Source of the DNA: Hymenobacter negativus
Lineage (GTDB): Bacteria; Bacteroidota; Bacteroidia; Cytophagales; Hymenobacteraceae
NCBI RefSeq assembly: GCF_017571495.1
Contig: NZ_JAGETZ010000003.1
Location: 62,001 to 126,000 of the forward strand
Direction: 5' to 3'
Length of the DNA stretch: 64,000 bases
A model generated the notes under the pieces. It was given only the letters and a program-made list of their open reading frames with translations. It was not told where the DNA came from and did no database searches. The stretch's first letter is position 1; each line of letters starts with the position of its first letter. The translations under genes were made by a program, and so were the position numbers. Below, piece by piece: positions 27,406-31,978 of the stretch.

Positions 27406-27615
27406 GCCCCGCAAAGCTGTTTGCACGGCATGCGAACCCGTTAAAGCGGTATGTAAACCCATACATGTAGCCCGCAAACCACTTCATACGGCCCGCGAAC
27501 CGCCACAAGTGCCCTGCAAACCACTTCATACGGCCCGCGAACCCCCACAAGTGGACCGCAAACCGCTTCACACGGCCCGCGAATCCCCACAAGTGCCCTG
27601 CGAATCAATATAAGT
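27406..27615. repeat. Ten 21-bp tandem repeats
   Basis: Ten consecutive 21-base units. Six of them (from 27469) alternate two forms, GCCCTGCAAACCACTTCATAC-like and GGCCCGCGAACCCCCACAAGT-like, giving a 42-bp higher-order period. The outer units are more diverged. On the minus strand this would read as seven-residue W/F/G/R repeats, but I see no credible gene there. Likely a minisatellite in the intergenic space ahead of the SAM riboswitch. Confidence 0.9.
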
Positions 27616-27728
27616 GCCCTGTTTTTCGTGTTTGCCATGTTGCGCGTGTTTGCCATGTTTTAGTAGTTCGGCATGTTTTGGGAATGGCGGGAGTACGCCC
27701 CACCGCTCCGGCAATCCAAGGCACGGCG

Positions 27729-27736
27729 TATCTTTG
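27729..27736 (+). promoter_or_regulatory. Candidate -7 box TATCTTTG for the riboswitch operon
   Basis: Exact TAnnTTTG match, 28 bases before riboswitch helix P1, at a spacing that would put the transcript start just ahead of the aptamer. The -33 element is not obvious. Confidence 0.5.
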
Positions 27737-27763
27737 CCCCATCAATTCTTTCTCCCCAAAGGA

Positions 27764-27862
27764 TTGTTTTTATACAGAGGCGCTGAGAGACAGGCTCACT
27801 GACGCGCCGGCAACCCCCCGCAACCGCGGGCACGGTGCCAATTCCTGACCATATAAAAACAA
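27764..27862 (+). promoter_or_regulatory. SAM-I (S-box) riboswitch
   Basis: All core elements are visible. P1 is 11 bp, 27764-27774 with 27852-27862 (TTGTTTTTATA/TATAAAAACAA). P2 has GGCGC 27779-27783 with GCGCC 27804-27808, and the inner GAGAGACAGGC resembles the kink-turn/pseudoknot side. GCCGGCAACC follows. P3 is CCCGC/GCGGG with an AACC loop (27817-27830). The conserved P4 side is CACGGTGCCAATTCCTG. SAM binding normally stabilises P1 and turns expression off. No intrinsic terminator follows directly; P1's 3' strand lies immediately before the GTG leader ORF, suggesting translational or attenuator coupling. Confidence 0.93.
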
Positions 27863-27868
27863 GTTGCC

Positions 27869-27967
27869 GTGGACGCTGCCAACAAAATTTTCGTTTCTCC
27901 CGCCACCATTTCTGCCCGCGCTGCTGTGCGCTCGGCTTGCATGGGGTGTTGTTGTTGTCCGGCCTAA
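27869..27967 (+). CDS. Cysteine-rich leader peptide (putative attenuator uORF)
   Basis: A 32-codon frame starting GTG, six bases after riboswitch P1; an in-frame TAA 15 bases upstream rules out a longer form. It reads MDAANKIFVSPATISARAAV then RSACMGCCCCPA and stops. One Cys, a Met and four consecutive Cys codons (all TGT) stand within the last nine codons. Its place between a SAM riboswitch and sulfur-type genes suggests ribosome stalling on Cys codons when cysteine is low, as reported for poly-Cys leader ORFs in mycobacteria. Alternative: a tiny peptide substrate of the downstream ATP-grasp ligase. Translation is unproven. Confidence 0.6.
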   Translation: MDAANKIFVSPATISARAAVRSACMGCCCCPA

Positions 27968-28251
27968 GTTCAGTTAGTCATTGCGGGTTTGCGCGGGCAA
28001 CGGCGGCTGCTATTAGCAGCGTTGTGGCCGTTTGCTAACATTTCCACTGGGGGCTGAACGCCTTTGGTCTTACTCCCACTGTGCCGCGCCACAAGAGCTT
28101 TCGGGAGTAACAGCGGCACGCTTGCCGACCAGATGCTGTTACCCATACCCAATTCTGGCGCTAACGCATTCACAATTTTTTGCTTCTACAGTCACCGATT
28201 TGTCGGCTGACTTGTTGTTCTACTCCAATTCTTTTAATTCTCCCTACACAC
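27968..28251 (+). promoter_or_regulatory. Structured 5' leader downstream of the uORF
   Basis: 284 bases with no gene. A small hairpin, GCTGC TATTA GCAGC, lies at 28006-28020. Two interlocking pairings follow: TTACTCCC (28070-28077) with GGGAGTAA (28103-28110), and GTGCCGC (28081-28087) with GCGGCAC (28113-28119). These cannot form together as simple stems, which is the pattern expected of an attenuator switch. A T-rich stretch (CACAATTTTTTGCTTC) follows at 28170-28185. Confidence 0.5.
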
Positions 28252-29283
28252 ATGGCCTCCCCCCAAAAGCCCATTGGCATCTACTTCGAGCACCCCGAAT
28301 GGTTCAAGCCCCTCTTCGCCGAGCTGGACCGCCGCGGCCTGCCCTACGAAAAAATCGACGCCGCCCACCACCTCTTCAACCCCTCCGAAAAGGAAAGCCG
28401 CTACAGCCTCGTCGTAAACCGCATGAGCTCCTCGGCCTACCTGCGCGGGCACGGCCAGGGCATCTTCCACACCGCCGGCTACGCCACGCACCTCGAGCGT
28501 ATCGGCACGCGCATCATCAACGGCTCAGCCGCCACGGCCATTGAGACGAACAAGGCCCGGCAGCTCTCGCTGTTCGAGTCGCTAGGCCTGAAATACCCGG
28601 CCTCGCGCGTCATCAACCACGCCTCCCGGGCGGTAGACGCGGCCCGCGAACTGCGCTTCCCCATCGTGGTGAAGGTGAACATCGGCGGCAGCGGCGCGGG
28701 CATCATCCGCTTCGATACCATTGAGGGCCTGCAGGCTGCGGTTGACAATAACCAGATTGACCTCGGCATCGACCAAACTGCCCTCGCGCAGGAGTACGTG
28801 ACGCCCCGCGGCGGCAACATCCACCGCGTCGAAACGCTGGACGGCAAATTCCTCTACGCCATGAAAGTGTACACCACCGGCGAAAGCTTCAACCTGTGCC
28901 CCGCCGAAATCTGCCAGATTCCCGAAGAGCAGTCGGCCGAGTTCTGCCTCACGGAGGCCCCGAAAAAAGGCATCCAGGTGGAAGCCTTCACGCCCCCGGC
29001 CGAAGTCATTGCCGCCGTCGAGCGCATCGTAGCCGCCGCTAAAATCGACGTGGGTGGCATCGAATACCTCATCGACGACCGCACCGGCGACGTGCTCTTC
29101 TACGACATCAACGCCCTCTCCAACTTCGTGGCCGATGCCGTGAACGTGGTTGGCTTCGACCCCTACGCCCGCTTCGTGGACTACCTCGAAACCCAGCTGT
29201 CCGGTGCCCGTCCGGCCGAGGTTTCTTTGGCCCAAGCTACCGCGCAGCTCGAAGGCTCCTACCAGCCCGCGTCCATCCACTAA
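28252..29283 (+). CDS. ATP-grasp (RimK-like) ligase
   Basis: A 343-residue ATP-grasp enzyme, which would couple a carboxylate to an amine or thiol through an acyl-phosphate. Seen: central loop FPIVVKVNIGGSGAGIIRFD (residues ~140-160), nucleotide-hinge AQEYVTPRGGNIHRVET, Mg-binding D and N in VLFYDINALSNFVADAVN near residue 285. The N-terminal domain (IGIYFEHPEWFKPLFAELDR) is the pre-ATP-grasp fold. Substrate unknown. It is the first main gene after the SAM-I riboswitch and Cys leader, 32 bases before the flavin monooxygenase gene, so a sulfur-related substrate is inferred. Start ATG 28252; an in-frame TTG at 28180 is unlikely. Confidence 0.85.
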   Translation: MASPQKPIGIYFEHPEWFKPLFAELDRRGLPYEKIDAAHHLFNPSEKESRYSLVVNRMSSSAYLRGHGQGIFHTAGYATHLERIGTRIINGSAATAIETNKARQLSLFESLGLKYPASRVINHASRAVDAARELRFPIVVKVNIGGSGAGIIRFDTIEGLQAAVDNNQIDLGIDQTALAQEYVTPRGGNIHRVETLDGKFLYAMKVYTTGESFNLCPAEICQIPEEQSAEFCLTEAPKKGIQVEAFTPPAEVIAAVERIVAAAKIDVGGIEYLIDDRTGDVLFYDINALSNFVADAVNVVGFDPYARFVDYLETQLSGARPAEVSLAQATAQLEGSYQPASIH

Positions 29284-29315
29284 GCCGGATTGTCGCTGGC
29301 ATAACGCATTAAAAT

Positions 29316-30335
29316 ATGAAATTCGGATATTGGATGCCCATTTTCGGGGGCTGGCTGCGCAACGTAGAAGACGAGCAGATGCCCACCGACTGGAGCTACG
29401 TGAAGCAGCTGGCGCAACGCAGCGAGGCCTGGGGCTACGACCTCACGCTCATCGCCGAGCTGTATTTGAACGACATCAAGGGCACCGAAGCACCTTCGCT
29501 CGAAGCCTGGAGCACGGCTGCCGCGCTAGCCGCCGTCACGGAGCAGTTGGAAATAATGGTGGCCGTGCGCCCCACCTTCCACAACCCCGCGCTGCTGGCC
29601 AAGCAAGCCGCCAACATCGACCTGATTGCGCCCGGCCGCCTGTCGCTGAACGTGGTATCGAGCTGGTGGCGCGACGAGGCCACCAAGTACGGCCTGCACT
29701 TCGAGCAGCACGACGACCGGTACGCCCGCACCCGCGAGTGGCTCGACGTGGTGACCAACGTGTGGAAACAGGACCATTTCAGCTACCAGGGCAAGTACTA
29801 TCAGGTGGCCGACAACGTCCTCCAGCCCAAGCCCGCCAAGGCTCCATTCCTTTACGCCGGCGGCGAGTCGGAAGCCGCCAAAGACCTCATCTCAACGCAG
29901 TGCGACGGCTACGTGATGCACGGCGACTCGCCCGAGCAAATCGGGGCCCGCATTGCCGACATGCGCCGCCGCCGCGAGCAGAAAGGCCTGCCGCCGATGA
30001 AGTTTGGCGTGGCCGGCTACTCCATCGTGCGCAACACCGAGCAGGAGGTGCAACAGGAACTGGACCGCATCACCAACGTGAAATCCTCGGCCGCGGGCTA
30101 TGACAACTACCAGCAGTGGCTGGCCGGCACGCAGCTGGAACAGCAAGTGTCGCTGCACGACTACTCAGTTTCGAACCGCGGCCTGCGCACCGGTCTCACC
30201 GGCACGCCCGCGCAGCTGCAGGACCGCATCGGCGAGTTTGAGCGGGTAGGAGTGGACTTCTTTCTACTGCAAGCCAGCCCCCAGCTGGAGGAAATGGAGC
30301 GGTTTTCAGAGTCGGTTATTCAGGTACTGGCGTAG
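29316..30335 (+). CDS. LLM-class flavin-dependent monooxygenase, SsuD/SfnG-like
   Basis: A 339-residue bacterial luciferase-like (TIM barrel) monooxygenase. Features of the SsuD/SfnG group: MKFGYWMPIFGGWLRNVEDE, AAVTEQLEIMVAVRPTFHNP, ALLAKQAANIDLIAPGRLSL then NVVSSWWRDE, YQGKYYQVADNVLQPKPAKA, FLYAGGESEAAKDL. These enzymes use reduced FMN and O2 to cleave C-S bonds of alkanesulfonates or dimethylsulfone, releasing sulfite. The SAM riboswitch upstream supports sulfur scavenging. No flavin reductase (SsuE) or ssuABC transporter is adjacent. Confidence 0.9.
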   Translation: MKFGYWMPIFGGWLRNVEDEQMPTDWSYVKQLAQRSEAWGYDLTLIAELYLNDIKGTEAPSLEAWSTAAALAAVTEQLEIMVAVRPTFHNPALLAKQAANIDLIAPGRLSLNVVSSWWRDEATKYGLHFEQHDDRYARTREWLDVVTNVWKQDHFSYQGKYYQVADNVLQPKPAKAPFLYAGGESEAAKDLISTQCDGYVMHGDSPEQIGARIADMRRRREQKGLPPMKFGVAGYSIVRNTEQEVQQELDRITNVKSSAAGYDNYQQWLAGTQLEQQVSLHDYSVSNRGLRTGLTGTPAQLQDRIGEFERVGVDFFLLQASPQLEEMERFSESVIQVLA

Positions 30336-30362
30336 CGCTTTTCGCTTCAATCCCAAACAAAA

Positions 30363-30471
30363 GACCGTCATGCAGAGCGTAGCGAAGCATCTCGCGTGGC
30401 ATTACTAATCCTTTTTAACGATTGAGTCACTATTGCACGCGAGATGCTTCGCTACGCTCTGCATGACGGTC
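30363..30471. repeat. MITE/REP-like palindrome, copy B
   Basis: Perfect 36-bp arms (30363-30398 and 30436-30471, GACCGTCATGCAGAGCGTAG...) around a 37-base centre. The right part of the centre (AACGATTGAGTCACTATTGC) is the reverse complement of the copy A centre, so B is the same element in the opposite orientation. It lies between the monooxygenase and the permease gene and may end transcription. Confidence 0.92.
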
Positions 30472-30526
30472 TAATAAATTTTCTGATACTCAACGTGCCC
30501 AGTAGTCGGCGCGTTTTAACAACTAC

Positions 30527-31978
30527 ATGCTTAAAAAATCACTAGAGCTACTTCGCGCTGAAGCGGCCGAAACGGGGGCCAACACCCTCAAGCGAAGCCT
30601 CAACGGCGTGAGCCTGATTGCTATTGGCATCGGGGTTATTATTGGGGCGGGTTTGTTTTCATTGACCGGCATTGCGGCGGCTAATAATGCCGGGCCGGCC
30701 GTTACCCTGTCCTTTGTGGTGGCAGCTGTGGGTTGCGCCTTCTCGGCGCTGTGCTACGCAGAATTTGCGGCGCTGGTGCCCGTTTCGGGCTCAGCTTACA
30801 CCTATTCGTATGCCACGATGGGCGAATTATTTGCCTGGATTATTGGCTGGGATTTAGTGCTGGAATATTCGGTGGGCGCGGCCACGGTGGCCATCAGCTG
30901 GTCGCAGTACCTCATCAAGTTCTTGGGGAAATACGGGCTGCACATCCCGGCGCAGCTAGTCATGTCGCCCTTTGAAAGCGCGAAGCTGGCCGATGGAAGC
31001 ACCGTGCACGGCTTCGTGAACGTGCCGGCTATGCTCATCGTGCTGGCCATTACGGCCATCGTGACGCGCGGTACCAAGGGCTCGGCCTGGTTCAACGCGC
31101 TGGTGGTGGCCTTGAAGGTGGCCGTGGTGCTGGTGTTCATCGCGCTGGGCTGGAAGTACATCGACCCCGCCAATTACCAGCCCTACATCCCGGCCAACAC
31201 CGGCAAGTTCGGCGAGTTCGGGCTCAGCGGTATTCTGCGCGGGGCGGGCGTCATCTTCTTCGTGTTCATCGGCTTCGATATTGTGGCCACCATGGCCCAG
31301 GAAACCAAGAACCCGCAGCGCAACATGCCCGTGGGCATCCTCGGCTCGCTGGCGGTGTGCACGGTGCTGTTTGTGCTGTTTGGGCACGTCCTGACCGGCT
31401 TGGCAAACTACACCGAGTTCAAAAACAATGCAGCGCCGGTAGCTATTGCCATCGAGAAAACGCCTTATGCCTGGCTCTCCTCGGCCGTGATTCTGGCCAT
31501 TCTGGTGGGCTACACATCCGTTATTCTGGTTGATTTACTGGGGCAGTCGCGGGTGTTTTTCTCGATGTCACGCGATGGGCTACTGCCGCCGGTGTTCTCC
31601 AAGCTGCACCCCACGTTCAATACGCCGTTTCAGTCCAGCTTGCTGCTGGGGTGCTTTATTGCGCTGTTTGCGGGCTTCGTGCCCATCTCGGTGGTGGGCG
31701 AGATGACGAGCATCGGCACGCTGCTGGCCTTTGTGATGGTGTGCCTGGGCGTGATGATTATGCGCCGCACTAACCCCGATGCGCCCCGCTCGTTCCGCAC
31801 GCCGTGGGTGCCGGTGGTGCCCATCCTCGGCATTGTGGTGTGCCTCGTGATGATGGCCTCGCTGCCTTGGGAAACGTGGCTGCGCCTGATTGTGTGGCTG
31901 GCGCTGGGCATGCTCATTTACTTCGGATACGGCCGGAAGCACAGCAAGCTGCGGCTGGCGCAGGAAAATCAGCGCTAG
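30527..31978 (+). CDS. APC-family amino acid permease (cationic amino acid transporter type)
   Basis: A 483-residue permease with ~12 membrane segments. TM1 signature SLIAIGIGVIIGAGLFSLTG followed by IAAANNAGPA; TM2 CAFSALCYAEFAALVPVSGS; TM6 FFVFIGFDIVATMAQETKNP (typical of the CAT group). C-terminus SFRTPWVPVVPILGIVVCLV. Transports amino acids by proton symport or exchange. It could belong functionally to the sulfur operon upstream (cysteine/methionine uptake), but the palindrome and 190-base gap between them argue for its own promoter. Confidence 0.9.
   Translation: MLKKSLELLRAEAAETGANTLKRSLNGVSLIAIGIGVIIGAGLFSLTGIAAANNAGPAVTLSFVVAAVGCAFSALCYAEFAALVPVSGSAYTYSYATMGELFAWIIGWDLVLEYSVGAATVAISWSQYLIKFLGKYGLHIPAQLVMSPFESAKLADGSTVHGFVNVPAMLIVLAITAIVTRGTKGSAWFNALVVALKVAVVLVFIALGWKYIDPANYQPYIPANTGKFGEFGLSGILRGAGVIFFVFIGFDIVATMAQETKNPQRNMPVGILGSLAVCTVLFVLFGHVLTGLANYTEFKNNAAPVAIAIEKTPYAWLSSAVILAILVGYTSVILVDLLGQSRVFFSMSRDGLLPPVFSKLHPTFNTPFQSSLLLGCFIALFAGFVPISVVGEMTSIGTLLAFVMVCLGVMIMRRTNPDAPRSFRTPWVPVVPILGIVVCLVMMASLPWETWLRLIVWLALGMLIYFGYGRKHSKLRLAQENQR

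Follow-up and report, generated by a model that had tools for sequence, protein, structure and literature searches.

The SAM-I leader and the genes behind it

The window analysed here is a stretch of 64,000 nucleotides from Hymenobacter negativus, and the locus under study lies on its forward strand as follows.

27729-27736, + strand: TAnnTTTG -7 promoter box, TATCTTTG (motif and census position)
27743-27766, + strand: 5' hairpin CAATTCTTT/AAAGGATTG, overlapping P1 by three bases (-5.5 kcal/mol; census motif)
27764-27862, + strand: SAM-I (S-box) riboswitch aptamer with an 11-bp P1 (RF00162, 71.1 bits; P1 letters)
27869-27967, + strand: leader-peptide uORF, GTG start, 32 codons, VDAANKIFVSPATISARAAVRSACMGCCCCPA (ORF reading, relatives, census)
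27938-27940, + strand: additional Cys codon, TGC (sequence letters)
27947-27958, + strand: putative regulatory codons, four consecutive TGT (Cys) (sequence letters)
27968-28251, + strand: untranslated pyrimidine-rich stretch from the uORF stop to the ATP-grasp start (C/G window count)
27993-28031, + strand: hairpin whose 5' arm can alternatively pair with the Cys run (-20.7 kcal/mol)
28252-29283, + strand: ATP-grasp ligase of the LysX/ArgX/RimK fold, ATG start (profile and fold matches; model mean pLDDT 76.7)
29316-30335, + strand: LLM flavin monooxygenase, SfnG/SsuD-like (Bac_luciferase 195 bits; PDB 3rao, E 8.2e-124)
30527-31978, + strand: amino-acid permease (APC, BcaP-like), the next gene (profile matches, census)

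The initial annotation had described a complete SAM-I aptamer with an 11-bp P1, a GTG-started frame of 32 codons six bases behind it that ends in a Cys run, and an ATP-grasp ligase and SsuD/SfnG-like monooxygenase pair downstream, and all of these are present. The Rfam scan matched RF00162 at full length over 27767-27859 (E 1.2e-14), and its score is above the curated threshold of 44.4 bits, which supports SAM-I membership by both sequence and fold. It is the only Rfam match at the gathering threshold in the whole window, and no second match was found in 27700-28400 in a search up to E 5. The P1 strands, 27764-27774 and 27852-27862, are complementary at 11/11 positions (TTGTTTTTATA/TATAAAAACAA), and the core sequence is GGTGCCAATTCC. 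Only 6 nt separate the 3' end of P1 from the GTG of the uORF, which places the 3' strand at -17 to -7 relative to the leader-peptide start, so that SAM binding should block translation of the leader. An alternative platform noticed by eye, GUUGCC before the GTG pairing with GGCAAC of the aptamer, is not conserved (loci L169, L173 and L190 have GTTACC) and was dropped.

The peptide of the window ends in CMGCCCCPA. A uORF with CCCC arose in 4 of 5000 dinucleotide shuffles of the post-aptamer leader, and the looser pattern of at least three Cys in the last 14 codons in 319 of 5000; conservation of the leader across relatives is stronger evidence than these odds. Genome-wide, TGYTGYTGYTGY occurs 215 times on both strands (74 for the reversed pattern), so poly-Cys codon runs are too numerous to pick out leaders by themselves.

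Transcription is predicted to start at about 27741. Taken by itself, the TAnnTTTG motif is no more frequent in the window than chance would give (17 occurrences against 21 expected). In the genus census described below, it lies at most 90 nt upstream of P1 in 73/76 sulfur-acquisition leaders, compared with 1/76 in a control region, the initial 100 nt of each locus. Its distance to P1 is mostly 37-44 nt, and 52-59 nt in the metY leaders. The position of the box relative to the transcript start, -12 to -5, is that given for F. psychrophilum (PMC9723704). A scan for Sigma-70 type promoters gave 0 matches. The 5' hairpin motif is present in 31 of 51 non-metY census leaders and in none of the 25 metY leaders.

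With regard to the enzymes, the LLM protein scores 242.4 bits against the SfnG model TIGR04021, under the cut-off of 382.95; it is a relative and not a member, and its assignment as an SfnG dimethylsulfone monooxygenase proper was rejected.

Distribution among SAM-I elements

The census covers 25 genomes of the genus to which the window belongs, and all of their 114 SAM-I matches were read. Under the strict rule, a Cys-rich leader ORF follows 75 of the 76 aptamers that precede sulfur-acquisition genes (ATP-grasp 8/8, cysH 17/17, metY 25/25, permease 18/19, SusC 7/7) and none of the 37 that precede metH (0/25), metB-like (0/7), hom (0/3) or cysK-like (0/2) genes; the one unassigned SAM-I also lacks it (0/1), and the antisense control gave 1/113. 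The strict rule was fixed after a looser first rule had been seen to return metH 4/25 and metB-like 1/7, all with TTG starts. Outside the genus but within the family, the same rule found the uORF in 41/41 elements ahead of sulfur-acquisition or related genes and in 0/23 ahead of metH or metB-like genes. This second set was fetched after the rule had been tuned on the genus, covers 64 of 76 SAM-I rows (12 left out) and was searched with a core limit of 380 instead of 350. Beyond the family the metY uORF is patchy (6/10 in the order, 4/57 in the phylum set), the order and phylum sets being loci returned by score plus chosen rows and not all rows. The initial annotation, which had described the arrangement only ahead of the ATP-grasp pair, understated its scope: within the genus, five classes of genes have this kind of leader.

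The gene classes also bear on the idea that the Cys-rich ORF is a graspetide-like RiPP precursor, with the ATP-grasp enzyme as its ligase and the LLM protein as a tailoring enzyme. A short Cys-rich ORF close to an ATP-grasp gene is what such a cluster would contain, and the graspetide ligases PsnB and AMdnB do appear lower in the Foldseek list. However, the same type of ORF is found ahead of cysH, metY, permease and SusC genes, the peptides span 26-66 codons with neither body nor length conserved, the top fold matches of the ATP-grasp protein are ArgX, RimK and LysX, and some of its relatives lack the ORF. A precursor should be conserved and specific to the ATP-grasp gene; this is not met, the census rules against it, and we give the idea next to no credence.

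Conservation of the Cys codons

The loss of Cys codons in orthologous leaders had been named beforehand as a result that would refute the proposal; this did not occur, the codons being conserved while the remaining peptide drifts. The leader is present at 36 of 46 loci fetched via the ATP-grasp protein. The leader-less loci are L010, whose contig stops 236 nt upstream, two in which the ATP-grasp gene comes after SusD (L025 and L027), and seven outside Hymenobacter: L039, L041 and L043 (Spirosoma), L042 (Fibrisoma), L044 (Chryseolinea), and L047 and L051 (Acidobacteria MAGs). L051 fell outside the scripted range of the count and had no match in a separate scan. The uORF of L037 starts with ATG, and the Cys cluster is in the middle of the peptide and not terminal in L020, L026, L028 and L032.

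In the 75 genus leaders, the second half of the peptide holds 399 Cys and the first half 32, and 71 of them have a Cys within the last four codons. These codons are mostly TGT, which is rare genome-wide: 111 uORFs use TGT and TGC 433 and 184 times, and the bias is reversed in 31 long ORFs of the window (TGC 118, TGT 13). The ATP-grasp part of this codon set comprises 43 sequences (L016 was missed), seven census loci having been joined to the fetched loci and the window with some places duplicated; for its metY part the first ATG was taken, and 5 of the 25 frames so obtained lack CC. Differences between uORFs fall nearly evenly on the three codon positions (269/285/343), so that apart from Cys the peptide hardly appears to be under selection. 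VQHGCC, considered as a general peptide motif, is shared only by some of the leaders of cysH, SusC and ATP-grasp genes.

The reading frame is kept as well. Runs of at least three TGY are in frame with the first start after P1 and open in 37/37 ATP-grasp, cysH and permease leaders (7 of the 44 have no such run) and in 2/2 SusC leaders (the other five of seven have none). For metY, frames counted from the first start were unusable (12 in frame 0; 10 in frame 2, where a GTG precedes the ATG by 5 nt; one lacking a run and two lacking an anchor), and the count was therefore based on ATG: the run is in frame with the first ATG 40-80 nt past the core in 19/23 leaders, an out-of-frame ATG occurs earlier in the remaining four, and two more metY leaders have no run. 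The leaders thus fulfil one criterion for a ribosome-mediated leader-peptide attenuator, namely a short ORF, kept across relatives, in which codons for the pathway product follow one another.

The runs reach ten consecutive Cys (L394), and such a peptide could in principle be a functional thiol- or metal-binding small protein. This we regard as very improbable, since nothing but the Cys codons is kept, each genome has several dissimilar copies, and the ORF is tied to SAM-I ahead of sulfur-acquisition genes only.

The region between the uORF and the gene

The initial annotation had also called the leader structured. This holds only in part: a hairpin is predicted at 27993-28031, and the consensus fold behind the uORF has z <= -2 against column shuffles in 5 of 8 leader groups, but in ATP-grasp clade A, which is nearest the window (z 0.11), and in the permease group (0.31) it does not outdo the shuffles. 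The picture for the covariation that had been anticipated is therefore mixed; one counterpart of the 27993-28031 hairpin covaries in six relatives, hand-picked for showing the hairpin. The Cys run and the 5' arm of this hairpin form a duplex of -26.1 kcal/mol in the window, compared with -19.1 +- 3.1 for shuffled arms, and in 7/7 leaders tried the pairing with the next hairpin 5' arm is below the shuffled mean, by 0.7 to 3.1 SD. The Cys run does not pair with the start of the gene in the ATP-grasp (z +0.30), cysH (0.01) and permease (0.03; 13 of 17 leaders used) groups, and it does so only weakly in metY (z -0.79; 32% below -1.5).

Intrinsic terminators are not enriched past the uORF (14/96 against 44/288 shuffled), also when the Cys region is included; these counts use 24 of 25 metY leaders (L247 excluded) and 18 of 19 permease leaders (L175 excluded). 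In the window the terminator scan gave one weak + strand site within the uORF (27924-27944) and a total of 2, compared with 3.9 in shuffles. An intrinsic terminator after the uORF was accordingly rejected. A 78-nt segment with C/G of at least 1.5 is found in 97% of 34 ATP-grasp leaders (of 37; three were too short), in 31% of 35 CDS pieces and in 55% of 20 other upstream regions.

A putative two-input leader

We propose that these elements form an RNA leader (attenuator) with two inputs, SAM and cysteine, for sulfur acquisition, and estimate the probability of this at roughly three in four; no expression, probing or ribosome data are available. The leader-less ATP-grasp loci outside Hymenobacter and the patchy occurrence beyond the family also count against it, as do the absent terminator enrichment, the lack of pairing with the gene start and the near-even codon-position differences. 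The proposal starts from what these leaders were observed to contain (aptamer, frame, conserved Cys codons, gene specificity, P1-to-start geometry and promoter position), and from these we infer SAM binding and the response to it, the response to cysteine, the AND logic and the last step. The SAM-I aptamer would set, through P1, whether ribosomes may start on the leader peptide, and the terminal Cys run would act as sensor of charged tRNA-Cys. With SAM bound, P1 would sequester the A-rich strand right before the leader start, the peptide would stay untranslated and the operon off. When SAM is low and cysteine ample, the ribosome would complete the peptide and depart, and most transcripts would be lost in the untranslated stretch downstream. 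It would take a shortage of both SAM and cysteine for the ribosome to stall at the Cys codons and for expression to go on. The route from the stalled ribosome to the expressed gene is unproven, given that terminators are not enriched, the RNA is C-rich, raising the question of Rho, and structure signals occur in some leader groups only. It is possible that the last step is Rho-dependent termination within the C-rich stretch, or a structural fork in which Cys-run pairing competes with the 27993-28031 hairpin, and it may vary from gene to gene.

SAM-I elements usually work alone as OFF switches, and it could be that here, too, the riboswitch acts separately, for instance on transcript elongation or stability, while the peptide senses cysteine and initiation on the uORF is not gated, giving two OFF devices in series. 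The same genomes do contain SAM-I elements that lack a uORF, and a GC-rich inverted repeat with a T run comes after some of them (L001, L152, L154-L156 and L165; by eye). The spacing argues otherwise: the gap from the P1 anchor to the start is 10 nt in 8/8 ATP-grasp leaders and in the majority of those of cysH and the permease, and 9-11 nt for SusC, which would have no obvious reason if initiation were independent of P1, and in the window the 6 nt between P1 and the start leave no space for another platform. The earlier inference that the 3' strand of P1 covers the uORF start region is borne out by this almost invariant geometry, and we consider independent action unlikely. For the two-input leader, we lean slightly towards a still broader reading, in which the ribosome-binding site of an attenuator peptide would be the expression platform of a whole lineage of SAM-I riboswitches. 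The riboswitch would then determine whether the cysteine sensor operates at all, and a hard-wired NOT-SAM AND NOT-Cys gate would recur at the genes of one regulon, namely those for cysH, sulfite reductase, metY, SusC, the permease, ATP-grasp/LLM and M14 peptidase, throughout the window's family; in the case of metY it would extend to further families of the order.

Relation to known systems and significance

No description of SAM-I combined with a Cys leader peptide was found in the open-licence literature searched, in agreement with the earlier statement that none was known in Bacteroidota. The Salmonella mgtA leader with MgtL has consecutive sensing codons, for proline, and is also discussed as a riboswitch; it differs in responding to Mg2+ and to proline/EF-P and has no SAM-I or Cys run. 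Mycobacteria have polycysteine leaderless sORFs (Canestrari 2020, as cited by PMC13236596 and PMC9094748), which are described as a cysteine-responsive attenuator and similarly place a poly-Cys short ORF ahead of sulfur/cysteine operons. They are leaderless, with no riboswitch mentioned in the accessible parts of those sources, whereas the ORF of the window lies behind SAM-I, about 128 nt into the predicted leader (start 27869), and by this prediction is not leaderless. The uORFC-8-2 motif upstream of cysS in Rhodobacterales also has a leader ORF whose Cys codons are conserved and in tandem; as far as the available portion of PMC8632094 goes, it differs in serving a single gene, in having an intrinsic terminator in all cases and in naming no riboswitch. 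In the M. tuberculosis B12 riboswitch-uPPE2 relay a riboswitch likewise masks the start of a translated, signal-relaying uORF, but the ligand is B12, uORF and gene overlap there (AUGA, reinitiation) and no amino-acid sensing is reported in the portion available (PMC11260477); uORF and gene are 284 nt apart in the window. In C. acetobutylicum, too, control by SAM is combined on one sulfur operon, ubiG, with what the title cited names as T-box control (Andre 2008, cited in PMC9943018); according to the part of PMC9943018 that was accessible, the SAM riboswitch there lies in antisense orientation at the 3' end, and there is no leader peptide.

The SAM-I elements are split by function, those of methionine genes standing alone and those of sulfur-acquisition genes having an apparent cysteine sensor. 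If the proposal is correct, this part of Bacteroidota would have a cis-acting cysteine regulon, and the connection of its SAM branch with its cysteine branch would become directly testable. The leader could also serve as a finder of sulfur-scavenging genes of unknown role, any gene downstream being a candidate, and it places the ATP-grasp/LLM pair, the BcaP-like permease and the SusCD/M14 set in sulfur metabolism. The suggestion that the ATP-grasp enzyme is a partner in organosulfur scavenging finds support in its place within the regulon and in the genes next to it (LLM, SusCD, permease), but has no biochemical backing. The Rfam scan found no SAM-I ahead of the permease gene at 30527-31978 in the window; at other places in the genus, homologues of this permease come with a SAM-I and Cys uORF leader of their own.

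The leader and its operon

We show here that the arrangement first described in the initial annotation is real and that its reading stands: a SAM-I riboswitch with an 11-bp P1 is followed by a cysteine-rich upstream ORF (uORF) and by genes for an ATP-grasp protein and an SfnG/SsuD-like flavin monooxygenase (LLM), with the geometry described there. The parts of the locus are:

27729-27736, + strand, promoter box (TAnnTTTG)
27764-27774 with 27852-27862, + strand, P1, extendable to 11 perfect pairs by complementarity
27767-27859, + strand, full SAM-I aptamer (71.1 bits)
27869-27967, + strand, uORF, GTG start, 32 codons, ending Cys-Met-Gly-Cys-Cys-Cys-Cys-Pro-Ala-stop
28252-29283, + strand, ATP-grasp gene
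29316-30335, + strand, LLM monooxygenase gene
30527-31978, + strand, amino-acid permease gene

The GTG at 27869 lies 6 bases 3' of P1, and 284 untranslated bases separate the uORF stop from the ATP-grasp start. From the box position in Flavobacterium psychrophilum, as given in PMC9723704, the transcript would be predicted to start near 27741. A promoter box of this kind stands upstream of 73 of 76 census leaders, mostly at a distance of 37-44 nt and, in metY, of 52-59 nt; a control stretch contains one in 1/76. Between the TonB receptor gene and the leader lie a tandem array of 21/42-nt units (27470-27601; 3.2 copies of 42) and, 3' of it, three 18-nt repeats (27615-27668); a perfect 37-nt inverted repeat (30362-30398 and 30436-30472) separates the LLM and permease genes.

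The ATP-grasp protein is modelled as having the ArgX/RimK/LysX fold. For the LLM protein the best PDB match is 3rao (E 8.2e-124), followed by 8vw6 and SfnG 8t0u, and its scores fall below the cut-offs for both SfnG and SsuD. When the ORFs of 47 loci (46 plus the window) were coarsely clustered, the ATP-grasp family was recovered in 40 loci, LLM in 38 and permease in 22, with some members hidden by antisense ORFs. The Spirosoma locus L039 reads SusC-SusD-ATP-grasp-LLM-M14 peptidase-permease, with an M14 zinc carboxypeptidase as part of the set, and in another genome (G197, locus L310) an M14 gene has its own SAM-I and Cys uORF. This association hints that the substrate may be peptide-like or an amide.

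Conservation of the cysteine codons

A CCCC uORF arose in 4 of 5000 shuffles of the window leader, and it is conservation that provides the decisive evidence against a chance origin. With the ATP-grasp protein as query, 46 loci were retrieved, and the leader is present in 36, mostly as a GTG 35 nt 3' of the aptamer core with a C-terminal Cys run; the cluster lies mid-peptide in L020, L026, L028 and L032, and L037 starts with ATG. Among the ten loci without it, L010 is at a contig end, the gene lies 3' of SusC-SusD in L025 and L027, and seven are outside Hymenobacter (three Spirosoma, Fibrisoma, Chryseolinea and two Acidobacteria MAGs). Solirubrum (L035; Cytophagales incertae sedis according to NCBI) does have the leader. 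In H. rigui it precedes SusC of the ATP-grasp operon: L229 and L027, on 192391-base contigs, have adjoining positions and a common SusC start and are therefore the same operon.

The longest TGY run (at least 3), where there is one, shares the reading frame of the first start codon 3' of P1 in 37/37 ATP-grasp, cysH and permease leaders; the other 7 of the 44 have no such run. For metY the frame agrees in 19/23 when counting begins at the first ATG located 40-80 nt past the core, the other four having an earlier out-of-frame ATG. Cysteine makes up 11-17% of the uORF peptides, depending on class, versus 0.92% in 31 long window ORFs, whose 14237 residues contain no CC. The codons also differ, TGT outnumbering TGC in the uORFs (433 vs 184; 139 vs 79 in other genera of the family), whereas the long ORFs have 13 TGT vs 118 TGC. 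Comparison of related uORFs in 49 pairs gave 246 identical Cys codons, 9 synonymous replacements and 38 changes, so the codons are kept in orthologous leaders; the annotation had named a lack of such conservation as one result that would refute its proposal. Changes at all positions of the same pairs were spread nearly evenly over the codon positions (269/285/343), and the peptide body therefore appears free. Cysteines fall in the second half of the peptide in 399/431 cases in the genus and 210/218 in the other genera.

Gene specificity

The H. negativus genome has five SAM-I elements, with a Cys uORF at three (ATP-grasp operon, cysH and metY) and none at metB-like and metH. A census of every SAM-I match in 25 genomes of the genus (n = 114) was scored by a strict rule (ATG or GTG start 15-80 nt 3' of the core; length 15-70 codons; three or more Cys, with a CC beyond residue 8), and one example per class was checked with NCBIfam (cysH, metY, metH, metB-like, cysK-like, hom, permease, SusC and ATP-grasp). 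Since the rule had been tuned on the census, it was tested on new loci outside the genus, 64 of 76 SAM-I rows from other Hymenobacteraceae.

Presence of the Cys uORF by the strict rule
Census, with uORF: ATP-grasp 8/8, cysH 17/17, metY 25/25, permease 18/19, SusC 7/7
Census, without: metH 0/25, metB-like 0/7, homoserine dehydrogenase 0/3, cysteine-synthase-like 0/2, L260 (no gene class) 0/1
Census, antisense control: 1/113
Other Hymenobacteraceae, sulfur-acquisition or related genes: 41/41 (metY 18, cysH 8, ATP-grasp 3, permease 6, SusC 1, nitrite/sulfite reductase 3, Na+/H+ antiporter family 1, M14 peptidase 1; the last three named from Pfam)
Other Hymenobacteraceae, metH (21) or metB-like (2): 0/23
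Elsewhere in the order, 27 loci: metY 6/10, cysH 1/1, metH 1/10, metB-like 0/2, other 0/4

The leader is a regulon-wide device. The 41 loci come from four genera, a fifth (g83) yielding only two elements, at metH and metB-like, and all leader counts are of related loci, not independent events. The single metH locus with a Cys uORF (L352) is probably chance. Among a set of 109 SAM-I elements outside the genus, taken from a phylum search, 4 had one (L084, L111, L117 and L121), all before metY; L082, from the same genus, was set aside.

One leader ORF (L394, genome G183) has ten consecutive Cys codons, with a nitrite/sulfite reductase gene behind it. Facing SAM-I pairs about 15-17 kb apart, each of one cysH and one permease leader, occur in five cases (G170:C7, G165:C8, G162:C6, G160:C1 and G153:C3). 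By eye, L001, L152, L154-L156 and L165 (metB-like, hom and cysK-like) share another SAM-I aptamer type, with a GC-rich inverted repeat and a T run inside, and the genus seems to have two expression platforms side by side.

Relation to known regulators and proposed mechanism

Each half of the device is already known. Related cases are mycobacterial poly-Cys sORFs, described as attenuators that respond to cysteine (Canestrari 2020, as cited in PMC13236596 and PMC9094748), a leader with Cys codons upstream of cysS in Rhodobacterales (PMC8632094), candidate leader peptides at amino-acid operons of F. psychrophilum (PMC9723704), a B12 riboswitch acting through a uORF in M. tuberculosis (PMC11260477), a looser parallel of preQ1 and a uORF in Listeria (PMC12519234), and SAM riboswitch control via antisense of the C. 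acetobutylicum ubiG sulfur operon (PMC9943018). In the open-licence literature we found no description of SAM-I combined with a Cys leader, in agreement with the annotation, which knew of none in Bacteroidota, and no paper containing both 'Hymenobacter' and 'riboswitch'. We rate the leader as a combination of known kinds, riboswitch and leader-peptide attenuator, whose gating and final step have yet to be shown.

With regard to gating, the P1 3' strand was proposed to cover the uORF start region, and in the window it occupies -17 to -7 relative to the GTG. Measured from the TATAAAA anchor of this strand, the gap to the start codon is 10 nt in 8/8 ATP-grasp leaders, likewise 10 nt for the majority of cysH (range 5-14) and permease (4-10) leaders, and 9-11 nt for SusC. 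Bacteroidota initiate translation without a strong Shine-Dalgarno sequence and prefer A-rich upstream sequence; closed P1 should therefore hide the initiation region of the uORF.

Downstream of the uORF, intrinsic terminators were not above shuffles (14/96 vs 44/288). Between the Cys run and the gene start there was no pairing for ATP-grasp (z +0.30), cysH (0.01) or permease (0.03) leaders and weak pairing for metY (z -0.79). The stretch is pyrimidine-rich, C exceeding G; 78 nt in a row with a C/G ratio of 1.5 or more were found in 97% of ATP-grasp (n = 34), 94% of cysH (n = 17), 78% of metY (n = 23) and 62% of permease leaders (n = 13), versus 55% of other upstream regions (n = 20), 57% of metH leaders (n = 21) and 31% of coding pieces (n = 35). 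The permease group is not clearly over background (62% vs 55%). Judged by base composition, such RNA fits Rho loading, which is not proof.

Structure signals after the uORF are mixed. The annotation had proposed a check for covariation in the following hairpins; consensus folds against column shuffles gave z of -2.10 and -2.75 in ATP-grasp clades B and C, -1.26 and -5.64 in metY groups and -5.31 and -2.64 in cysH groups, but 0.11 in ATP-grasp clade A and 0.31 in permease. The strongest groups are of 5 and 8 close relatives, and the folded stretch can extend into the gene. Single-sequence folding in 60-nt steps placed the ATP-grasp minimum just past the stop (mean z -1.36 at +20) and that of other classes elsewhere. 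Six relatives, picked because they visibly have it, share a hairpin some 27-67 nt past the uORF in which 94.4% of the pairs are kept and four pairs have changed on both strands; a hairpin also occurs at this place in the window. Pairing energy of the Cys run with the hairpin 5' arm was below the shuffled mean in 7/7 leaders tried, by 0.7-3.1 SD, and the minimum-energy fold of the window leader includes this pairing. A fork is possible, in which either the Cys run pairs with the arm or the hairpin forms, and a stalled ribosome would tip it. By eye, a hairpin also lies shortly 5' of the permease ATG in L170, L172, L177, L182 and L203, its stem kept through two-sided changes (CGCGAAGC/GCTTCGCG in several, CGCAAAGC/GCTTTGCG in L182).
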